Below, one piece after another: positions 33,169 through 42,866 of a DNA stretch of 64,000 nucleotides. Location of the stretch: positions 1 to 64,000 of the forward strand of contig PHFB01000003.1 of assembly GCA_002841355.1 (NCBI GenBank), read 5' to 3'. This DNA comes from Actinobacteria bacterium HGW-Actinobacteria-1. Lineage in GTDB: Bacteria; Actinomycetota; Coriobacteriia; Anaerosomatales; Anaerosomataceae. How positions within the stretch are numbered: position 1 is the stretch's first letter; each line of letters begins with the position of its first letter. The translations under genes were made by a program, and so were the position numbers. The notes beneath the pieces are model-generated. The model made no database searches, was not told where the DNA came from, and worked only from the letters and a program-made list of their open reading frames with translations.

Positions 33169-33966
33169 TTAGACGCTGAGGTCGCGCGCCGAGTAGAAGC
33201 GATACGTCCCGAGCACGGCCAGGGCGACGATTCCCACTGACAGCGCGACATACACCGGGTCGAGCCGGCCATCGGCCATGAGAACCGCGGCGTCGTAGTA
33301 CTTGAACGGTGAGAGGTACTTCAGGAACTGGAGATTCTCGCTCATGTTCACGAGGTATGAGACGAGGAACGCGGTGAACATGATGGACATCGCGATAGAA
33401 GGAGCGGCCTTCGGCTTTCGGATGACGCCGGCGACTGCCGTGCCGATCGTGAAGAAGATGAGCTGCATCAGGAAGAGGCCCATCATGAGAATCCGTATGT
33501 CGGCGCCCACGGATTCGCCCTGACCGAAGAGATTCACGAAGTAGAAGGACGACAGCAGCGTCGCGAGGTTGAAGATGACCAACATCGTGAGCCCGGCGAG
33601 CAGCTTCGAGGTCAGCGCGTGGTTCCGGGACACGGGTTTCGCGTACAGGAACTCGGACGTCCTGTCGCGCTCCTCTTTGGAGACCAGGTGCGAGCCGAGC
33701 AATGCCGCGTGTATCGCGGCCATCAGGCCGATGTAGAGGAAGAGCACGCCGTAGAAGCCGCTCGCCTTCGTCAGGTCGAAGCCTGTCATACCGAAGACGG
33801 TCAGCACTGCCTTCGGCATGCCGGCCATCATCTCTTGGACAGATACGCCAGCGGCCTGGTACGCGTCGTACTTCGCCATGCCGGAAGCAACAAGGCCAAC
33901 CATGCCGATGCACCACCAGATCAAGCCGGTGCGGTGCGCTTTCATTTCGCGAAGATAGATGTTCAT
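33169..33966 (-). CDS. ABC-2 type transporter permease
   Basis: This 265-aa protein has about six membrane helices. It is related in sequence to the preceding permease: both contain a SKE(E/V) segment before the third helix, a KP(V/M)(S/T)R loop and an SPFK(Y/F)YD motif near the end. It probably forms a heterodimeric export channel with it. ATG 33966 is preferred over GTG 33975 because of the AGGTGGAG site. It is the third gene of the exporter operon. Confidence 0.85.
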   Translation of the reverse strand: MNIYLREMKAHRTGLIWWCIGMVGLVASGMAKYDAYQAAGVSVQEMMAGMPKAVLTVFGMTGFDLTKASGFYGVLFLYIGLMAAIHAALLGSHLVSKEERDRTSEFLYAKPVSRNHALTSKLLAGLTMLVIFNLATLLSSFYFVNLFGQGESVGADIRILMMGLFLMQLIFFTIGTAVAGVIRKPKAAPSIAMSIMFTAFLVSYLVNMSENLQFLKYLSPFKYYDAAVLMADGRLDPVYVALSVGIVALAVLGTYRFYSARDLSV

Positions 33967-33975
33967 ACGCTCCAC

Positions 33976-34776
33976 CTATGCCGAGGCGCGGACGTCCTTC
34001 TTGATGTAGATTACGTAGCTTGCCGCGATGGCGACGATAATGATCGCGGCTTCGAGAGCGATGAACTTACCCTCGAGTCCTACGTTCTTGATGATGTAGG
34101 CCGTGTCGTAGAACTTGAACGGCGACATATAGCGGACCTTGTCGTTGCCCAGTACGTCGCCTAGTGTGCCGACGATGTAGAGCGTGAAGACGGCGGGCAT
34201 CGACACGGCGATCACGGACTTTATCTTCGGGATGAGTACGGCGAAGAGCGCTCCGAGCGCCAGGAAGACCAGCTGCACGAGAAACATCGTGGATGCCAGC
34301 AGCAGGAGCGTTCCGATCGCGAACGTCTCGGTCGCGACCATGAGCGCCGCCAGGTACGAGACTCCGCAGAAGACCACGTTCGTGATCACGATGATGGTGA
34401 ACGCGGCAGCAAGCTTCGCCGAGACCACCCGACCGCGGGTCATCGGCTTGGAGAGCAGGAAGTCCGCGGTCTTGCCGGCGACCTCCTTCGAGATGATCCC
34501 GGTTCCGAGGTTCATCGCTTGAATCGCACCGGCGAGGATCGCGAAGTTGAGCAGGTAGCCGTAGAAGCCGTAGATCGTGAAGAAGTCGGAGAGCGAGATG
34601 TTGAGCGCGGTCCTCAGGGCCTCAGGGAACTGCCCGAGCACCTGTTTGGTGGCAGCAACATCACTGGTGAATGCTGGATACAGCGCCATGAAGACGATGA
34701 GGATTGCCGAGAGCGAGGCGCACCAGATGATCGTCGACTTCCGATAAGCGCTTAGCTCTCGGAGGAAGACGTTCAC
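33976..34776 (-). CDS. ABC-2 type transporter permease
   Basis: This 266-aa protein with six predicted membrane helices (family ABC2_membrane_2) starts at GTG 34776, overlapping the ATPase stop in GTGA. KPMTRGRVVSAK and MSPFKFYDTAY match the paralogous permease downstream, so the pair arose by duplication. The substrate is unknown; it may be a toxic compound or lipid sensed by the divergent TetR-kinase. Confidence 0.87.
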   Translation of the reverse strand: MNVFLRELSAYRKSTIIWCASLSAILIVFMALYPAFTSDVAATKQVLGQFPEALRTALNISLSDFFTIYGFYGYLLNFAILAGAIQAMNLGTGIISKEVAGKTADFLLSKPMTRGRVVSAKLAAAFTIIVITNVVFCGVSYLAALMVATETFAIGTLLLLASTMFLVQLVFLALGALFAVLIPKIKSVIAVSMPAVFTLYIVGTLGDVLGNDKVRYMSPFKFYDTAYIIKNVGLEGKFIALEAAIIIVAIAASYVIYIKKDVRASA

Positions 34777-35672
34777 TGCTCGTCCTCCTTCTTGTAGTAG
34801 TGCATGAAGATCTCCTCGAGGTCCGGCTCCTCGACCAGGAAGTCGACGAGGTCCTGCTCGGCGAGCATCTTCGTTATCTCGTTTACGCGGCCACGGTACA
34901 GGAAGCTCACGGAGTGGTTCGTTATTGCGAGGTCGCTCACGCCATCTACGGCGAAGGCAGACGCGACGGGCGTCTCGACCAGCTCGAGCTTGAAGCGCTT
35001 TGTGCTGTTCTCGAGCAACGTCTTGATTTGCTCCACCTTGATGATCGAGCCATCCTTGATGATGGCCACCCGGTCGCAGAGCTTCTGCACCTCGGAGAGG
35101 ATGTGTGACGAGAACAAGATCGTGGCACCCTTGGCGTTCTCCTCCTTGAGCAGGTGGAAGAACTGCTGCTGGATGAGCGGGTCGAGCCCGCCGGTCGGTT
35201 CGTCCAGGATGATGAGCTTCGGTTCGTGCGCGAGCCCCTGGATGATGCCGACCTTCTTCTTGTTGCCGTACGACAGGTCGTCGATCTTCTTCTTGAGATC
35301 CAGGTCGAACAGCTCGGCGAGGCTCTTGATACGTGCCTCGATGGCCGTGCGGTCCTTCCTGTAGAAGCTTGCCGAGTATCTCAGCAGGTCGATCACGCGC
35401 ATGTCGTCGTAGTAGAAGACTTCCGAGGGAAGATAGCCGACTTCCTGGCGGATCTCCGGCCCGGACGCGGTGACATCTTTCCCGAAGATGGTCGCTGAGC
35501 CGCTCGTTGGGTGGATCAGGCCAAGCAGCGTCCGGATGGTCGTGGACTTCCCGGCGCCGTTGGGTCCGATGAAGCCGTAGATCTCGCCTTCGGCTACGGT
35601 CATATCGACATCGATGATGCCCCTGGACTTGCCGTAGTACTTGGTCAGCTTCGTGGTCTCGATCACGTTCAT
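34773..35672 (-). CDS. ABC exporter ATP-binding protein
   Basis: This 299-aa ATPase has Walker A GPNGAGKST, a signature variant LSYGNKKKVG (in place of LSGGQ), Walker B LIILDEPTGGLDP and the H-loop LFSSHILSE. It has a C-terminal domain of about 80 aa, as in drug/Na+ exporter (CcmA/DrrA-type) ATPases. ATG 35672 has GGAG upstream; the frame runs open to 35858 without support. It is the first gene of the exporter operon, divergent from the TetR-histidine kinase gene. Confidence 0.9.
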   Translation of the reverse strand: MNVIETTKLTKYYGKSRGIIDVDMTVAEGEIYGFIGPNGAGKSTTIRTLLGLIHPTSGSATIFGKDVTASGPEIRQEVGYLPSEVFYYDDMRVIDLLRYSASFYRKDRTAIEARIKSLAELFDLDLKKKIDDLSYGNKKKVGIIQGLAHEPKLIILDEPTGGLDPLIQQQFFHLLKEENAKGATILFSSHILSEVQKLCDRVAIIKDGSIIKVEQIKTLLENSTKRFKLELVETPVASAFAVDGVSDLAITNHSVSFLYRGRVNEITKMLAEQDLVDFLVEEPDLEEIFMHYYKKEDEQ

Positions 35673-35826
35673 ATGTGCTCCATTGATCTCGCCCCGCACA
35701 CACCGGTCATGACTAGTATGTTCCAAACTGCGACAGGATGGGACACCCCGCGGCTGGGAAGTGGCGGACGCTCGCGCGGTGTCTCGCGCTCGCGGTGCGT
35801 CAAGACCGTCGCCTGTTCGATTGCGG

Positions 35827-35881
35827 TTGACTCCCATCCTCGTTCGCCGTAGCCTCAAGCCTGACTGAACGGCCAGTCAGG
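35827..35881 (+). promoter_or_regulatory. promoter with palindromic operator at the predicted transcription start
   Basis: TTGACT (35827-35832), a 17-nt spacer and TAGCCT (35850-35855) form a good sigma-70 type promoter. The predicted start near 35861 falls in a perfect palindrome: CCTGACTG (35860-35867), 6-nt spacer, CAGTCAGG (35874-35881). This looks like a TetR-type operator. Its right end merges with the GGGAGG ribosome site of the gene starting at 35893. Confidence 0.75.
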
Positions 35882-35892
35882 GAGGCACACAC

Positions 35893-37182
35893 ATGACCGC
35901 GGCACCCGCGACCAGCAGCAAGGATCGTATACTCCGCTCGGCGCTGGAGCTCTTCTCGGAGAAGGGGTTCAGCAGCACTTCAGTGCAGGAGATCGCTACG
36001 AAGGCGCACGTGAGCAAGGCGCTCGTGCACTACATCTTCACCACCAAAGAGGCGATTCTTATGGAGCTGCTGGCGGACTTCAAAGAGGATCTTGCCGGCG
36101 CGTTCACCCGCATCTACACCAAGGCAGATTGCGATCGGTACTACGGCTGTTGGGACACCGATGAGATCCAGCAGGGCCTTGACTTCTTCATCGAGAATCG
36201 CCAGCTGTGGATCGTGCTGGTGCTTGAGTCGCTGAAGTCGACCTCGGGCAAGGAGAATCTCATCGACGTATGGGGCGAGCTGAACGTCCGTACGCGGAAG
36301 AAGATGCTCACGGACCGTGGCTTCACCTTGGAGGGCGAACTCACAAAGGACATCGTCGATTTCTTCTTCATCTTCGTGCCCACGATGATGTTCGCTGTCT
36401 TCAAAGACGAATGGACCGCGCTGCAGGGCGGCAGTAGTGAGGAGGAGATCGCCGAGAGCTTCACCGACATCCTGAATACGCTGTATGCGGCGTTCCTGCG
36501 CGAAAACACGCGGGCGGAGTTGCTCAAACACATGATCGCTGCGCAGGAAGAGGAACGGAAGCGGGTGGCTCGTGAGCTCCACGATGAAACGAGTCAGGCG
36601 CTCACCGCACTGATGCTCGCACTCGACACCGCTGTTCTCGCGCTAGACGCCGGTCACGATGACGTACCGGAGCGCCTAGCCGGCGCGCGGGCAATCGCGG
36701 ACAACCTGCTTGAGGATGTGCAGCGCCTTGTCACCGACCTGCGGCCGAGCATGCTCGACGACCTCGGCCTGGTCGCCGCCATCGCCTGGTACGGCGAGCA
36801 GCGCTTGGAGCCTGTGGGCGTTGAGCTGCGGCTCGAAGGAGATGGCCTCGAGTGCCGGCTCCCGGCACCCGTCGAGACCGCGCTCTTCCGCATAGTCCAG
36901 GAGGCGCTCACCAACGTCGTGAGGTACGCCGAGGCGCGCACGGTCGTCGTGAGGCTCGACATCGGTCAGAAAGAGCTGGTGCTGAAGATCAGCGACGACG
37001 GGCGTGGCATCGATCCCAAGCGACTAGAGAGCAAGTCGTTCCGGAGCGCATCGCTCGGCCTGCGCGGCATGCAGGAGCGCGTGGGCATCTTGGACGGAGA
37101 GTTTGCGTTGGAGACAGGCGTGGGCGAGGGCGTTACTATCACAGCGCGAATCCCGGTGTCGTGGATCGTGGTGCCCGAATGA
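35893..37182 (+). CDS. TetR DNA-binding regulator fused to a histidine kinase
   Basis: This 429-aa protein has an unusual order of domains. Residues 8-56 are a TetR helix-turn-helix (SSTSVQEIATKAHVSKALVH followed by YIFTTKEAIL). Residues 60-205 are a helical TetR-like ligand domain. The dimerisation/phosphoacceptor domain is of the HisKA_3 type (ERKRVARELHDETSQ, His230), as in NarX/DesK kinases. A GHKL ATPase domain follows, with Asn341 in EALTNVVRYAEA and a DDGRGID G-box. No membrane helix is evident, so it should be a soluble kinase that can sit on DNA. The frame is continuous, so this is not a two-gene artefact. The next gene, a NarL-type regulator, overlaps by 4 nt and is the obvious phosphorylation partner. 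Confidence 0.9.
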   Translation: MTAAPATSSKDRILRSALELFSEKGFSSTSVQEIATKAHVSKALVHYIFTTKEAILMELLADFKEDLAGAFTRIYTKADCDRYYGCWDTDEIQQGLDFFIENRQLWIVLVLESLKSTSGKENLIDVWGELNVRTRKKMLTDRGFTLEGELTKDIVDFFFIFVPTMMFAVFKDEWTALQGGSSEEEIAESFTDILNTLYAAFLRENTRAELLKHMIAAQEEERKRVARELHDETSQALTALMLALDTAVLALDAGHDDVPERLAGARAIADNLLEDVQRLVTDLRPSMLDDLGLVAAIAWYGEQRLEPVGVELRLEGDGLECRLPAPVETALFRIVQEALTNVVRYAEARTVVVRLDIGQKELVLKISDDGRGIDPKRLESKSFRSASLGLRGMQERVGILDGEFALETGVGEGVTITARIPVSWIVVPE

Positions 37183-37832
37183 ACACGATACGCGTCGCTC
37201 TGGTCGACGATCATGCGATTCTTCGCGAGGGACTTCGCGCGCTGCTGACATACTACGATGACATCGAGGTCGTTGGTGAAGCAGCAGACGGTGACCAGGC
37301 GATCGCGCTTGTACGGGACACGTGCCCCCATATCGTGATCATGGATATCGCTATGCCGCGTATGAGCGGCATAGAGGCCACCGGCAAGGTTCTGGAGTGC
37401 TTCCCCGACGTGCGCGTCCTTGTTCTCACACAGCATGACAACTGGCGCTATGTGGTTGAACTCATGCATGCGGGCGCGTCCGGCTACGTTATGAAGCGTT
37501 CGGTGGGCTCTGAGCTGATTACGGCGCTGCGCGCGGTCGCCGCAGGCGAGACGTTCATCGACCCGGTGATGGCCTCTTCGGTCGTGCGCGAACTGAGCGC
37601 GCACGACGGCGACGCCGACGGAGGCCCGTCGGCGCTCACAGCCCGCGAGCGGCAGATCCTTGCGCTCATCGGCGACGGCAAGTCGGGCCCGCAGATCGCA
37701 GCCAAGCTTTTCCTGAGCCTGAAGACGGTCTCGTGGCACCGGACCAACATCATGACGAAGCTCGATCTGCATTCCACTGCCGCGCTTGTGCGCTACGCAC
37801 TGGAGAAGGGTCTCACTCCCGAGCCTGAATGA
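37179..37832 (+). CDS. NarL/FixJ-family response regulator
   Basis: This 217-aa protein has a receiver domain with acidic pair D10/D11, phosphoacceptor Asp56 (VIMDIAMP) and a conserved Lys in MKRS. It also has a LuxR-type helix-turn-helix (LTARERQILALIGDGKS and LSLKTVSWHRTNIMTKL). The ATG lies within the kinase stop (ATGA), so both are made together. It is presumed to be phosphorylated by the TetR-kinase fusion; target promoters may include the divergent ABC exporter. Confidence 0.93.
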   Translation: MNTIRVALVDDHAILREGLRALLTYYDDIEVVGEAADGDQAIALVRDTCPHIVIMDIAMPRMSGIEATGKVLECFPDVRVLVLTQHDNWRYVVELMHAGASGYVMKRSVGSELITALRAVAAGETFIDPVMASSVVRELSAHDGDADGGPSALTARERQILALIGDGKSGPQIAAKLFLSLKTVSWHRTNIMTKLDLHSTAALVRYALEKGLTPEPE

Positions 37833-37862
37833 CACCGCTGCACGCAGACACCGCGTAGGTCT

Positions 37863-37887
37863 GGGCTCCGGCTTTGCGCCGGGGCCC
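37863..37887 (+). terminator. hairpin after the response-regulator gene
   Basis: A 10-bp GC-rich stem (37863-37872 with 37878-37887, one G-U pair) has a TTTGC loop. The tail TTCGCATTC is not a clean U run, so termination may be partial. Confidence 0.5.
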
Positions 37888-38031
37888 TTCGCATTCCCCG
37901 GGTCTTCGCCCTGGATGACCAGCGCGTTCGGTGGGTCAAAAGACAGACTTAACGCCTGTTCGCCTGGGGTGTCGGTCGTTCCATGCTTGACGGTGGGTGG
38001 ACCGATTCTCGTATGCGGATTGGAGTGGAAC

Positions 38032-39309
38032 ATGAGTCAACTGAGATTGAATCGCGGTTCGTCAATCGTCGGGGTCGGATGCACGGAGTTCGGCAACATG
38101 CTGGAGACCCCCGGCATCAAAGGCCTCTGCACGGAGGAGCTGGCAGTGAAGGCCGCCTTCGAGGCACTCGACGATTCCGGTCTCGAGCCCAAAGACATCG
38201 ACGCCTTCTTCATCGGCGGCGTGCAGATGTCTACGGCGCACATGTTCGCGCATTACTCGCGTATGTGTGACTGGCTTGGTTTACAGCGCAAGCCGGGGCT
38301 TCACTTCGAGACGGCATGCTCAACGACCAACACGGGCGCCGGCCTCGCGGCTATGGCGATCGGGTCGGGTCGTTGGGACAACATCCTCGTGGTGGGCGTG
38401 GACTCGATCCTGTCACACCCTGTCGACAATCCACCGGAGCGCGTTCCCCAAGATGCTGGCGAGCTCTGGACGACGACCGACTACGGCGCAGACCAGGAGT
38501 ACGCAGTGCCGCACGGCTGGGATATCGCACCCGGATACGGCGCGTTCCCGACCCTCGCGTACGCCCAGCGATACGGCCTCACACTGGCACAGATGGACGA
38601 GATCATGTTCAACATGCACATGACGGTCCGCCGCCAGGCCGTGCTCGAGCCCAAGGCGTTCATCAAGCAGGACCTCCCGACACTTGCGGCGAGCGTAGGT
38701 ATCCCGGATCCGTGGGAGTTCTGGAACTCGCAGTACAACCCGTACGCTGCATGGCCCACGCGAGCCCTGTCCTGCCTCAACCCGTGCGACGGCGCCTCGG
38801 CATATGTCGTGACTCCCGCCGACAAGGCCAAGCAATACACGGACACGCCGATCGACATCCTTGGCTTCGATTGGGCGGCATACAACGGTCTGGCCGACAA
38901 AGACCCGCTCAATTGGGACGTCGATCGACTGCCCTTCGAGGGCGCATACAAGATGGCCGGCATCGCCCCTGCGGACATCGACTATCTGAGCGTGCATGAC
39001 TGCATGCAGATCTACCAGTTGGTTCTGGCCGAGGTGGCTGGCTATCTGGAGAAGGGTCAGGGCTACAAGGCCTTCCTCGAGCGCCGGACCGGCTCGGACG
39101 GCGACAAACCGATCTGCACGCATGGCGGCAAGCACGGCAAGGGTCACGCATTCGGAGCGTCCGGCGGTTCGGACATCTACGAAGCCGTCAAGCAGATGAA
39201 GGGCGCGGCTGGAGCCCGGCAGATCGCGAAGCAGCCGGCAATCTCGGTCGTTCACAACGCCGGTTACTGCATGCACACCGCGGTGACGGTGCTGGGGCGG
39301 CGTGATTAG
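38032..39309 (+). CDS. thiolase-like acyl-CoA acyltransferase (SCP2-thiolase type)
   Basis: This 425-aa protein starts at ATG 38032 (GGAGTGGAAC upstream). It has the nucleophile Cys in ETACSTTNTG, a SVHDCMQIYQL segment and GGKHGKGHAFGASGG, which correspond to the catalytic Cys, the HDC/HEA region and the GHPxGATG loop of SCP2-type thiolases. It should make or split a 3-ketoacyl-CoA. A DUF35 gene follows; in archaea and bacteria such proteins form complexes with thiolases of this type. With Pta and AckA downstream, thiolytic release of acetyl-CoA for ATP production is a reasonable inference. Confidence 0.82.
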   Translation: MSQLRLNRGSSIVGVGCTEFGNMLETPGIKGLCTEELAVKAAFEALDDSGLEPKDIDAFFIGGVQMSTAHMFAHYSRMCDWLGLQRKPGLHFETACSTTNTGAGLAAMAIGSGRWDNILVVGVDSILSHPVDNPPERVPQDAGELWTTTDYGADQEYAVPHGWDIAPGYGAFPTLAYAQRYGLTLAQMDEIMFNMHMTVRRQAVLEPKAFIKQDLPTLAASVGIPDPWEFWNSQYNPYAAWPTRALSCLNPCDGASAYVVTPADKAKQYTDTPIDILGFDWAAYNGLADKDPLNWDVDRLPFEGAYKMAGIAPADIDYLSVHDCMQIYQLVLAEVAGYLEKGQGYKAFLERRTGSDGDKPICTHGGKHGKGHAFGASGGSDIYEAVKQMKGAAGARQIAKQPAISVVHNAGYCMHTAVTVLGRRD

Positions 39310-39386
39310 CAATGTGCAGGGGCTATCAAGCGTTCTGTGATGCTGGGCGCGCCATTGATGGCGCTTCTCGAAAGGGAGGATTCCGT

Positions 39387-39785
39387 ATGTCTGGTGAATC
39401 GATCGTACGCACGTTCTACGCGGCGCTTGGCGAGGGCAAGATCCTCGGAACCAAGTGCGGCGAATGCGGTTCGTACAGCTTCCCGCCTAAGACCGCATGC
39501 ACCGAGTGCGGCAGCCGCGACATCGAGGTCGTTGAGATGAGTGGCGATGGCGAGTTGCAGTTCTACTCGAGTGGCGGTCTGCCGCCGCTGCGCTTTGCGG
39601 ACTATGCGCCCTACGCGTACGGCCTGGTCAAGCTCAAGGAAGGCCCCATGTGGCTGACGATGATCAAGGGCGTGGAGGTCGTTGACCACGACAAGATGGA
39701 AGCCTTCTTCACCACGCTGCCGGTCGCGGTCAAGGCCAAGATCGCCGAGGTTGCTGGCACCAACATCGTGACGTTCGAGGTGTAG
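39387..39785 (+). CDS. DUF35 zinc-ribbon/OB-fold protein, thiolase partner
   Basis: This 132-aa protein starts at ATG 39387 behind a strong AAAGGGAGGA. An N-terminal rubredoxin-like zinc ribbon has CGEC and CTEC; an OB-fold follows (residues 55-132). DUF35 proteins bridge and channel acyl-CoA between thiolase-fold enzymes and partners such as HMG-CoA synthase. It is adjacent to the thiolase gene in the same operon. Confidence 0.88.
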   Translation: MSGESIVRTFYAALGEGKILGTKCGECGSYSFPPKTACTECGSRDIEVVEMSGDGELQFYSSGGLPPLRFADYAPYAYGLVKLKEGPMWLTMIKGVEVVDHDKMEAFFTTLPVAVKAKIAEVAGTNIVTFEV

Positions 39786-39878
39786 ACAGACTTGACCGAG
39801 GGTGGCGTTCGGGACTCCGGGCGCCACCCTCCGACTATCGCAGCGCCCGCGTCAGAAGCGCGAGGCAAGGAGGTGACC

Positions 39879-40871
39879 ATGAGCGTCATGACCGAAATGA
39901 TTGCTGCGGCGCAACGAGAACCGTTACGCGTGGTACTGCCCGAAGGTGGCGAAGACGACATCGTCAGGGCTGCCGCTCTCGCCGCTGAGCGCGGCATTGC
40001 TAGACCGATACTAATCGGTAGGCCTGTGGTGGTGGAGGCCCACGCGGTTGAGCTGGGCATCACGCTCGACGGAATCGAGATCGTGGATCCGGACGATCTC
40101 CCCAAGATCGCCGAGTATGCGCACGAGTACGCGTCAGAGCGGGGCTACCCGGAGGCTGTTGCTGCGAAGATTCTCGCACAGCCGCTGAGCTACGCCGCGA
40201 TGATGGTGCATTCGGGTGATGCCGATGGCATGGTCGCCGGTCTCGCGCACGCCACCGAGGACGTGATCATGGCAAGCGAGCTCGTGATCGGACTCGAGCC
40301 GGGTGTCTCAACGCCGTCGAGTTGCTTCCTCATGGACATCCCCGGTTTCGAGGGGAGCGAAGGGAGCCTTCTGCTCTTCGCAGACCCCGCCGTGAACCCG
40401 GAGCCCAACGCCGCACAACTGGCCGATATCGCGGTCGCAACTGCGGGCACGGCGCGTGTTCTGCTGCGCTGGGAGCCGAGGGTCGCTCTGTTGTCGTTCT
40501 CAACGTGTGGCAGCGCCGAGCACCCGCTTGTCGACAAGGTCACCAGGGCGCTTGAAATCGTGCGCGACAGGGAGCCTGAGCTCAAGATCGATGGCGAACT
40601 GCAATTGGATGCCGCCATTGTTCCCGATGTCGCTGCCCGCAAAGTACGCGGCGGAAGCGATGTCGCCGGCGTCGCCAACGTGCTGATCTTCCCTGGCCTC
40701 GAGGCCGCGAACATCGGCTCGAAGCTTGTCGAGCGCCTCGCGGGCGCGAAAGCGATCGGGCCACTGCTGCAGGGCTTCGCTCGGCCAGTGAGCGATCTCT
40801 CGCGCGGTGCGGCTGTCGAGGACATCATAGGTTCTATCGCGATGGTCGTGGTGCGGGGGCAGCAGGCATGA
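39879..40871 (+). CDS. pta: phosphate acetyltransferase
   Basis: This 330-aa protein of the short Pta form (about 325-335 aa) starts at ATG 39879 after an ideal AAGGAGGTGACC. It converts acetyl-CoA and phosphate to acetyl phosphate. PTA family blocks seen include MVHSGDADGMVAG, SSCFLMDIP and FSTCGSAEHPLVDKV. Its stop overlaps ackA (ATGA), forming the standard Pta-AckA route to acetate and ATP. Confidence 0.93.
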   Translation: MSVMTEMIAAAQREPLRVVLPEGGEDDIVRAAALAAERGIARPILIGRPVVVEAHAVELGITLDGIEIVDPDDLPKIAEYAHEYASERGYPEAVAAKILAQPLSYAAMMVHSGDADGMVAGLAHATEDVIMASELVIGLEPGVSTPSSCFLMDIPGFEGSEGSLLLFADPAVNPEPNAAQLADIAVATAGTARVLLRWEPRVALLSFSTCGSAEHPLVDKVTRALEIVRDREPELKIDGELQLDAAIVPDVAARKVRGGSDVAGVANVLIFPGLEAANIGSKLVERLAGAKAIGPLLQGFARPVSDLSRGAAVEDIIGSIAMVVVRGQQA

Positions 40872-42088
40872 TCGTACTCGTCATCAATGCCGGCAGCTCT
40901 TCGCTCAAGTACCAGCTTTGCGACACCGCAACCGCGCAGGTGCTCGCCAAGGGGTCGGCCGCACGCATAGCTGAGAGCGGGGCGTCGTTCTCACACGTTG
41001 CGGGCGAGCGAGCGTTCACGTTGCTCGATCCCATACCCTCGCATCGCGATGCGATGGCGCTGATGATCGAGGCCCTGCTGGACCCCGAACATGGCGCACT
41101 CACGGGCGTCGAGCAGGTCGATGCAGTCGGTCACAGGGCGGTGCACGGCGCCGATGTCTTTGTAGAGCCGGCACATATCACCCCCGAGGTGATCGACAAG
41201 CTCGAGGCCTGTGTTCCGCTTGCTCCACTTCACAACCCCGCGAATATCCTTGGCATCCGGGAAGCGCAGCGCGTGCTTCCTGGTGTGCCGCACGTGGCGG
41301 TTTTCGACACGGCATTCCACGCGACGATCCCGCGGCATGCCTACCTCTATGCGTTGCCGTTGGAGCTCAGCGCATCGAACCGCATCCGCAAGTACGGCTA
41401 CCATGGGACCTCCTGTCGGTACGTGGTCGAGCGCGCCGCGGAGATGCTCGGCAAGCCCGTCGAGTCGCTGAAGATGATCGTGTGTCACCTGGGCAACGGC
41501 GCAAGCATCACTGCCGTCGACGGCGGCCGGTCGGTCGAGACCAGCCTTGGCTTCGGCACGATGAGCGGCCTCATGATGGGGACGCGTGCGGGCGATCTCG
41601 ATCCGGCGATCATCTTCCACCTCCATCGCGAGTTGGGCATGAGCCTCGAGTCGATCGAGAGCATGCTCTATCACGAGAGCGGGCTGCTCGGCGTTTCGGG
41701 TCGGAGCCGGGACATGGGCGCGATCCTGCAGGGTGTCGAGGCGGGGGATGAGCGATGCCAGCTTGCGCTCGAGATGTTCGTACACCGTCTGAGGAGCTAC
41801 ATCGGTGCGTATATCGCCGTACTCGGTGGCGCCGACACACTCGTATTCACGGCAGGGATCGGCGAGAACTCCGAGACCGTGCGTCGACTTGCGTGCGCGA
41901 ATCTCGAGGCGCTCGGAATCCGGCTCGACGAGGGGGCCAACGCCGCGATTCATGGCACCGGGGGGCGCATCAGCGCCGAAGACTCACCGATGACCGTGCT
42001 GGTCGTGCCTACGGATGAGGAGCGCTCCATAGCGCTTCAGACAGAGGCTGTAGTCCAAGGAACCACCATGCTGACCATTGCACCGTAG
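40868..42088 (+). CDS. ackA: acetate kinase
   Basis: This 406-aa protein of the ASKHA fold has VINAGSSSLKYQL at the N-terminus, GHRAVHG, FDTAFHATIP, KYGYHGTSCRYV, HLGNGASITAVDGG with SLGFGTMSGLMMGTRAGDLDP, and FTAGIGENS at the C-terminus. It makes ATP from acetyl phosphate. It is translationally coupled to pta and followed 16 nt later by an acyl-carrier-like gene. Confidence 0.95.
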   Translation: MIVLVINAGSSSLKYQLCDTATAQVLAKGSAARIAESGASFSHVAGERAFTLLDPIPSHRDAMALMIEALLDPEHGALTGVEQVDAVGHRAVHGADVFVEPAHITPEVIDKLEACVPLAPLHNPANILGIREAQRVLPGVPHVAVFDTAFHATIPRHAYLYALPLELSASNRIRKYGYHGTSCRYVVERAAEMLGKPVESLKMIVCHLGNGASITAVDGGRSVETSLGFGTMSGLMMGTRAGDLDPAIIFHLHRELGMSLESIESMLYHESGLLGVSGRSRDMGAILQGVEAGDERCQLALEMFVHRLRSYIGAYIAVLGGADTLVFTAGIGENSETVRRLACANLEALGIRLDEGANAAIHGTGGRISAEDSPMTVLVVPTDEERSIALQTEAVVQGTTMLTIAP

Positions 42089-42104
42089 GCGAGAGGAGCC
42101 GGAC

Positions 42105-42356
42105 GTGAGCGAGAACGCAAACACCGTCGATCGCGTGAAGGACGTTGTTGGAATCGTATTCAAGACCGAGGCGCAGGCCTTGGCCGAGGACACGAGGTTC
42201 GTGGAGGATCTGCGTTCCAAGTCGATGAACACAATCGAGTTGGCGGCAATGCTCGAGAATGAATTCGGCGTTCCGGTCTCGTGCCACGTGCTGCGCAAGT
42301 ACAAGACTGTTGGCGAGACGGCGACGCTGATGGATGGTTTGCTCGGTAACGGATAG
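42105..42356 (+). CDS. acyl carrier protein-like protein
   Basis: This 83-aa protein starts at GTG 42105 with AGAGGAG. FVEDLRSKSMNTIELAAMLE is in the place of the DSL motif of acyl carrier proteins; the Ser in KSM would carry phosphopantetheine. The usual acidic residue before Ser is replaced by Lys, so it is a divergent ACP. A convergent AcpS gene lies 65 nt away. It follows pta-ackA closely and probably shares their transcript. Confidence 0.75.
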   Translation: MSENANTVDRVKDVVGIVFKTEAQALAEDTRFVEDLRSKSMNTIELAAMLENEFGVPVSCHVLRKYKTVGETATLMDGLLGNG

Positions 42357-42374
42357 CCGCAGGTGCGCTACGTG

Positions 42375-42410
42375 CGAGGCTCGCGAAGTGCGACTGCTTC
42401 GCGAGCCTCG
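42375..42410. terminator. bidirectional terminator between ACP-like gene and acpS
   Basis: Perfect 14-bp arms (42375-42388 with 42397-42410) have an 8-nt loop and TTCG after it. It sits between two convergent genes and serves both. Confidence 0.75.
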
Positions 42411-42421
42411 TTCGCGCGGGG

Positions 42422-42793
42422 CTAGGTGGCGACAGCGAACGCAATCGCGTACTCACCGTCGTATGAAACGCTGAGTGCGATGCTCGTCGCTCCGGCTGCG
42501 TCGGCGATTCGCTTCGCGTGACCGTGCAGCACAACGTACGGCTGGCCGCTGTCGCGCTCGAGGATCTCGATCTCGTGGAGTTCGATACCGCTGTCCCAAT
42601 CGGTGTCGAGCGTCTTGAAGACGGCCTCTTTCGCTGCGAAGCACTTCGCGTAGAAGCTGACCGGGAGGGCGTGACGCCCTGCAGCTTCCTGCTCTGCCGC
42701 GGTGAAGGTCTTATCCAGGAAGACATCGCCGCCCGTCTCAACGCCCTGTCCGATCCGCGAGATCTCGACGATGTCTGTTCCGACTCCGATCAA
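42422..42793 (-). CDS. acpS: holo-[acyl-carrier-protein] synthase
   Basis: This protein of about 123 aa matches the AcpS length. It has GVGTDIVEISRI at the N-terminus (Mg-binding Asp) and FAAKEAVFKTL (the catalytic Glu/Lys helix). The start is placed at TTG 42793 because AAGGAG lies 5 nt upstream and the conserved IGVGTD follows directly; no ATG fits. It transfers 4'-phosphopantetheine from CoA to ACP. The convergent ACP-like protein is a natural substrate, besides fatty-acid ACP. Confidence 0.9.
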   Translation of the reverse strand: MIGVGTDIVEISRIGQGVETGGDVFLDKTFTAAEQEAAGRHALPVSFYAKCFAAKEAVFKTLDTDWDSGIELHEIEILERDSGQPYVVLHGHAKRIADAAGATSIALSVSYDGEYAIAFAVAT

Positions 42794-42866
42794 GGCGTCT
42801 CCTTGGGTTCGCCACTGCTCTCGCCCATGATACAGCGTTGCAGTGCTCCCCCAACTGCCGGGTGTT

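Follow-up and report, generated by a model that had tools for sequence, protein, structure and literature searches.

Histidine kinases of the DesK, NarX and LiaS type share a HisKA_3 DHp domain with an HDxxxQ motif, a GHKL ATPase domain, and an operon with a NarL-type partner. Their input comes from membrane, GAF, HAMP or PAS modules. Hybrid two-component systems unite a kinase, a receiver and a DNA-binding domain within a single chain. One-component regulators are the supposed origin of two-component systems, and natural proteins that are both at once are, to our knowledge, seldom seen.

TetR/AcrR repressors consist of a helix-turn-helix (HTH) and a helical core. For instance, TTHB023/PfmR is reported to repress fatty-acid metabolism genes and to have an autoregulatory site (PMC7022988).

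The locus described here borrows from each of these systems. It lies in the window, a stretch of 64,000 nucleotides from contig PHFB01000003.1 of Actinobacteria bacterium HGW-Actinobacteria-1, and it encodes a TetR-type regulator fused to a histidine kinase. The kinase part has the same domains, motif and operonic partner as DesK/NarX/LiaS-type kinases, but a TetR-type region takes the place of their usual input. Compared with TetR/AcrR repressors (PDB 3vpr; the PfmR/TTHB023 group of Thermus pTT27), the HTH is alike, the putative helical core is of similar length and in the same place, and there is likewise an autoregulatory-looking palindrome with TGAC half-sites. The fusion differs from them in being about 26% identical, in having a C-terminal domain without a Pfam match, and in carrying a kinase. 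As in hybrid systems, a sensor kinase and a DNA-binding domain occupy one chain, but the fusion has no receiver, its HTH is on the input side, and its response regulator is separate. Finally, a GAF-GAF-HisKA_3 kinase and its regulator in genome G008 belong to the same clade and regulator type, with an AcpS neighbour and a similar cassette, but that kinase has a GAF sensor rather than TetR, and its core is 51% identical. The fusion is a new kind of two-component sensor variant, found so far in one genome, and there is a good chance that it is bifunctional.

The fusion gene, its regulator and its promoter

35827..35855, + strand: weak promoter-like pair TTGACT-17 nt-TAGCCT, read from the sequence, directly upstream of the palindrome
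35860..35881, no strand: operator-like palindrome CCTGACTG-AACGGC-CAGTCAGG, 11 nt before the ATG and touching the Shine-Dalgarno GGGAGG
35893..37182, + strand: TetR-histidine kinase fusion, 429 aa (ORF, Pfam, NCBIfam, codon phase, PDB sequence matches to DesK 3gig/7ssj and TetR 3vpr)
35893..36510, + strand: TetR half, residues 1-206 (TetR_N; best solved relative 3vpr_A; tblastn to Thermus plasmid TetR)
36493..37179, + strand: HisKA_3/HATPase_c kinase half plus its native upstream helix (identity to the L009, L010 and L011 kinases; clade support 100/98)
37179..37832, + strand: cognate NarL-type response regulator, 217 aa, with receiver, GerE HTH and D56 (4-nt overlap; Pfam; identity to relatives' regulators)

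The fusion protein is laid out as TetR_N (residues 13-58), a predicted all-helical, TetR-type ligand-binding region (about 60-200), a linker helix (about 197-220), the HisKA_3 DHp domain (221-286, with His230) and HATPase_c (328-422). The initial annotation had proposed that one uninterrupted frame encodes the TetR HTH, the HisKA_3 domain and the GHKL ATPase domain, and the fusion is confirmed as a genuine single polypeptide. The frame begins with ATG and has no in-frame stop through its 429 codons, while the other two forward frames contain 15 and 10 stops. Third-position G+C lies between 0.68 and 0.87 in each 60-codon window, the join included. All three domains exceed their curated Pfam cut-offs, with E-values of 7.5e-14 (TetR_N, at 51.7 bits against a gathering cut-off of 24), 1.5e-13 (HisKA_3) and 7.1e-14 (HATPase_c). 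A Pfam scan finds no Response_reg domain in the fusion protein, and the domains listed for it include no membrane segment, in keeping with the soluble protein first proposed. Since the TetR part is fused in frame to a kinase, it is not a stand-alone one-component regulator.

Within the frame, an ATG at codon 214 is preceded by a Shine-Dalgarno-like GGCGGAG (36514-36534), and translation of a free kinase might begin there.

The partner gene is as it was first reported: a NarL-type regulator, with Response_reg and GerE domains by Pfam, whose ATG lies across the kinase stop, so that the two genes share 4 nt. The phospho-acceptor D56 is present, as are T84 and K106. The regulator is 58% identical to those adjoining the L009 and L010 kinases of Chloroflexota and 53% identical to the one adjoining the G008 kinase. 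For both genes, the coordinates and residues given earlier agree with the ORF and Pfam results.

The palindrome upstream of the fusion, also part of the initial annotation, is present and exact, with two 8-bp arms around a 6-bp spacer. It overlaps the presumed transcription start, just downstream of the -35/-10-like pair. This pair matches 8 of 12 consensus bases, which is below the threshold of the promoter scanner, and the scanner did not report it. The exact core of the palindrome occurs once in the 2.44-Mb genome, at the fusion promoter; there is no second exact copy in the genome, and so none near the cassette described below. Sites with two mismatches are not in excess (60 per strand, against 57 for a reversed control pattern). 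By chance alone, 222 of 5000 resampled intergenic regions contain an inverted repeat of this quality.

A TetR-family site of the form TGACYRnnyRGTCA has been described (PMC7022988). The palindrome has the same TGAC half-sites, set 4 bp further apart than those of the TTHB023/SbtR consensus of Thermus. These features are consistent with a candidate autorepressor operator. The TetR head is likely to bind 35860-35881, and it probably represses its own promoter there.

Relatives of the two halves

Similarity to the fusion's best relatives covers half its length only, in about 650 genomes of the phylum (including the 69 of the order), plasmids, phages and IMG/VR. No single match spans the two halves in its own genome, in 61 relatives, in 69 genomes of the order, or in 298 of the class and 396 of the phylum, the last two screens being strict enough (E 1e-45 and 1e-34) that distant or independent fusions could be missed. 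Nor was one found by a pattern scan of GTDB contigs, in IMG/VR, in 72,556 plasmids, or in 50,697 phage records; for other phyla, the coverage consists of that scan together with the collections of plasmids and phages. Independent TetR-kinase fusions in other lineages are possible. No description of a TetR-histidine kinase fusion was found in the literature, in which subscription journals were thinly covered. The architecture looks real, apparently unreported and very rare.

The kinase half is well conserved. His230 lies within ARELHDETSQ, at a position that is nearly invariant in an alignment of 64 related kinases, and N341, D368, G370, G372 and G389 are invariant among them; the N box and both G boxes fall in invariant or nearly invariant columns. 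The kinase catalytic residues are therefore kept across homologues; their loss had been named at the outset as grounds for doubting the fusion. Residues 218-419 align with structures of B. subtilis DesK by PDB sequence match. The nearest kinases are those of L009 and L010 in Chloroflexota, at 54-56% identity, followed by the G008 kinase (L011) at 51%. Together with the window kinase these form one clade, with support of 100/98.

The sensors of the clade mates are HAMP in the Chloroflexota kinases and GAF in the G008 kinase. Among the 64 related kinases, TetR_N is found in the fusion alone, and GAF models match 44-46. Because its closest relatives carry these ordinary modules, the fusion appears to have had its sensor swapped, with TetR in place of GAF or HAMP. 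The similarity to the nearest kinases begins at fusion residue 197-203, a position that corresponds to the helix preceding the DHp domain in the relatives themselves, and alignment to these kinases reveals no remnant of another sensor between the two halves. Thus, the join has the anatomy of a clean module swap.

The kinase-regulator pairs at L009 6001-7549 and L010 424-1778 in Chloroflexota are 54-58% identical to the window pair, compared with 51-53% for the pair of G008, a genome from the same family. That the Chloroflexota pairs are the closer ones suggests lateral transfer of the pair.

The TetR half is more divergent. By tblastn, residues 7-194 (91% of this half) align with TetR proteins of Thermus plasmids at about 26% identity. 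This alignment is consistent with the TetR-like ligand domain of the initial annotation, although the putative helical core has no match of its own among the Pfam TetR C-terminal models. An AlphaFold2 prediction from three sequences gives an all-helical model of low confidence (mean pLDDT 56), too weak to judge coupling between the halves. A search for a stand-alone parent of the TetR half gave nothing, either among 61 relatives (E<=1e-9) or among 198 genomes from the phylum (E<=1e-14).

The best TetR relative is a Thermus protein encoded on pTT27 (strain HB8), first in an operon that includes an acyl-CoA dehydrogenase and other fatty-acid genes. Its position and neighbourhood fit TTHB023/PfmR, which it presumably is. 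The ligand of the TetR half is perhaps an acyl-type metabolite, such as acyl-CoA or a related compound of the cassette; with no close stand-alone relative to compare, this is a guess.

The insertion and its metabolic cassette

35747..42864, no strand: 7.1-kb stretch missing from the sister species G003 (blastn, window against L061)
38032..39309, + strand: thiolase-family protein (Thiolase_C_1), in the presumed target operon (Pfam; same insertion)
39387..39785, + strand: ChsH2-like zinc-ribbon/OB-fold protein (Pfam)
39879..40871, + strand: phosphate acetyltransferase, Pta (Pfam PTA_PTB, NCBIfam)
40868..42088, + strand: acetate kinase family, AckA (Pfam; TIGR00016 above cut-off)
42105..42356, + strand: acyl carrier protein, ACP (Pfam PP-binding)
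42422..42793, - strand: holo-ACP synthase, AcpS (Pfam ACPS 1.8e-16)

The fusion and its regulator are part of a larger insertion. In G003, which belongs to the same genus, the flanks of the window are collinear at 78-84% identity, and window positions 35746 and 42865 are only 32 nt apart. The difference between the sister species is a clean presence or absence of 7.1 kb (window 35746 / 42865 against L061 8731 / 8763). No repeats were found at the ends of the insertion, and no integrase was seen there.

Given that the flanks are present in G003 and 35747-42864 is not, the fusion and its regulator travel with the thiolase, ChsH2-like, Pta, AckA, ACP and AcpS genes, and not with the neighbouring transporter. 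We infer that this acetate/acyl-CoA cassette was acquired recently, together with the regulatory pair. The insertion had been overlooked earlier, and it changes the likely target and ligand of the fusion. The metabolic cassette is probably its partner.

A similar cassette occurs in G008. There, a thiolase-ChsH2-Pta-ACP-AckA-thiolase-ChsH2 series runs into a contig end, and another contig starts inside the GAF kinase and continues with that kinase, its regulator and AcpS. The two contig ends would fit together, with the junction crossing the contig gap. Kinase, regulator and AcpS are neighbours both in G008 and in the window genome. In G434, thiolase, ChsH2, ACP, AckA and Pta are found on a 5.6-kb contig, in which no similarity to the fusion or its regulator was found.

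The thiolase/ChsH2-like/Pta/AckA/ACP module therefore recurs in three anaerobe-like actinobacterial genomes, in varying order (window 38032-42793; L081 166-6899; L110 818-4931), with AcpS nearby in two of the three. A route from thiolase through acetyl phosphate to ATP that has its own ACP is unusual.

Proposed working and alternatives

The fusion can be pictured as a soluble, dimeric sensor kinase in which a complete TetR-type regulator would replace the GAF or HAMP input. A small metabolite, most likely acyl-CoA or another acyl-type compound linked to the thiolase-Pta-AckA-ACP cassette, would bind the TetR core. The C-terminal dimerisation helices of the core would then move, and the shift would pass straight into the DHp helix. 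This would alter both the autophosphorylation of the kinase at His230 and the transfer of the phosphoryl group to Asp56 in the adjoining NarL-type regulator, which, once phosphorylated, would control the metabolic cassette. By the same switch, the TetR head would bind or leave 35860-35881, so that the kinase-regulator operon would be autoregulated. This reading, in which an acyl-type ligand acts through the TetR-driven kinase and the regulator on the cassette, with autoregulation by the TetR head at the palindrome, is held with slightly better than even confidence. In a bolder form of it, one ligand switch in the TetR core would set both operator occupancy and kinase activity, one binding event yielding direct repression together with signalling by phosphorylation, and the kinase might even stay on the DNA; this is a tentative proposal, and we lean somewhat against it.

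The initial annotation had suggested that one- and two-component logic would be joined in a single protein. A single polypeptide with a TetR HTH and a complete kinase is indeed encoded. With a single genome known to carry the fusion, the joining of the two logics is a plausible hypothesis rather than a principle.

If the proposal is true, a TetR core drives a DesK-type kinase, and repressors could be plugged into kinases via joined helices. TetR proteins of known ligand are plentiful, so such joining of repressors and kinases would be testable, and useful in biosensor design. The acquired acetate/acyl-CoA module offers a concrete test bed, as its relatives rely on GAF-type kinases from the clade of the fusion kinase. 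Even if only the sensor was swapped, the TetR region would be new as an input module of histidine kinases.

That last case is the most serious of the alternatives. The TetR part may be a module for sensing and dimerisation only, its HTH a passenger that binds no DNA, and the protein a kinase with an unusual sensor. A sensing role would suffice, given that GAF or HAMP occupies this position in the nearest kinases, and the significance of the palindrome is modest. However, TetR_N scores far above its cut-off, as a well conserved domain, and an operator-like palindrome whose exact core is unique in the genome lies over the presumed transcription start. A passenger HTH is held to be rather unlikely. 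Two proteins in practice, with the TetR half as repressor and Met214 as the start of a free kinase, would have little joint function. The GGCGGAG 6-13 nt upstream of codon 214 is what speaks for them, but purine-rich stretches like it are frequent by chance, the product would lose most of the helix that links sensor and DHp in relatives, and each TetR copy carries a kinase, as no stop follows the TetR half. This arrangement is very improbable. An artefact of assembly or sequencing could be suspected in a draft genome of 28 contigs whose fusion is in no second genome. Such a join, aligned helix to helix, could not be produced by a single indel, and it retains neither a leftover sensor nor a separate start region for the kinase, while the frame stays open at constant third-position G+C and the overlap with the regulator is intact. 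The codon phase and the anatomy of the junction led to the rejection of a frameshift or an assembly artefact as barely credible.

The preferred target, the cassette, also has a competitor in the ABC-2 transporter, which is divergently arranged (35678-33169). Such transporters are often controlled by a TetR or NarL-type regulator that adjoins them, and this operon, an ATPase and two permeases at 33169-35678, has a 214-bp intergenic region in common with the fusion gene. It is outside the insertion, though, and the G003 insertion point falls between transporter and fusion. Seven relatives keep the operon without the kinase-regulator pair, and a PadR gene is conserved on the other flank of the operon, both in the window and in G003. 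The transporter was rejected as target on this synteny, and its control by the fusion is judged improbable.

Several relatives have conserved the ABC-2 ATPase and its permeases. Beyond the operon, the PadR gene is accompanied by an ABC1-family kinase gene, in the same order as in G003.
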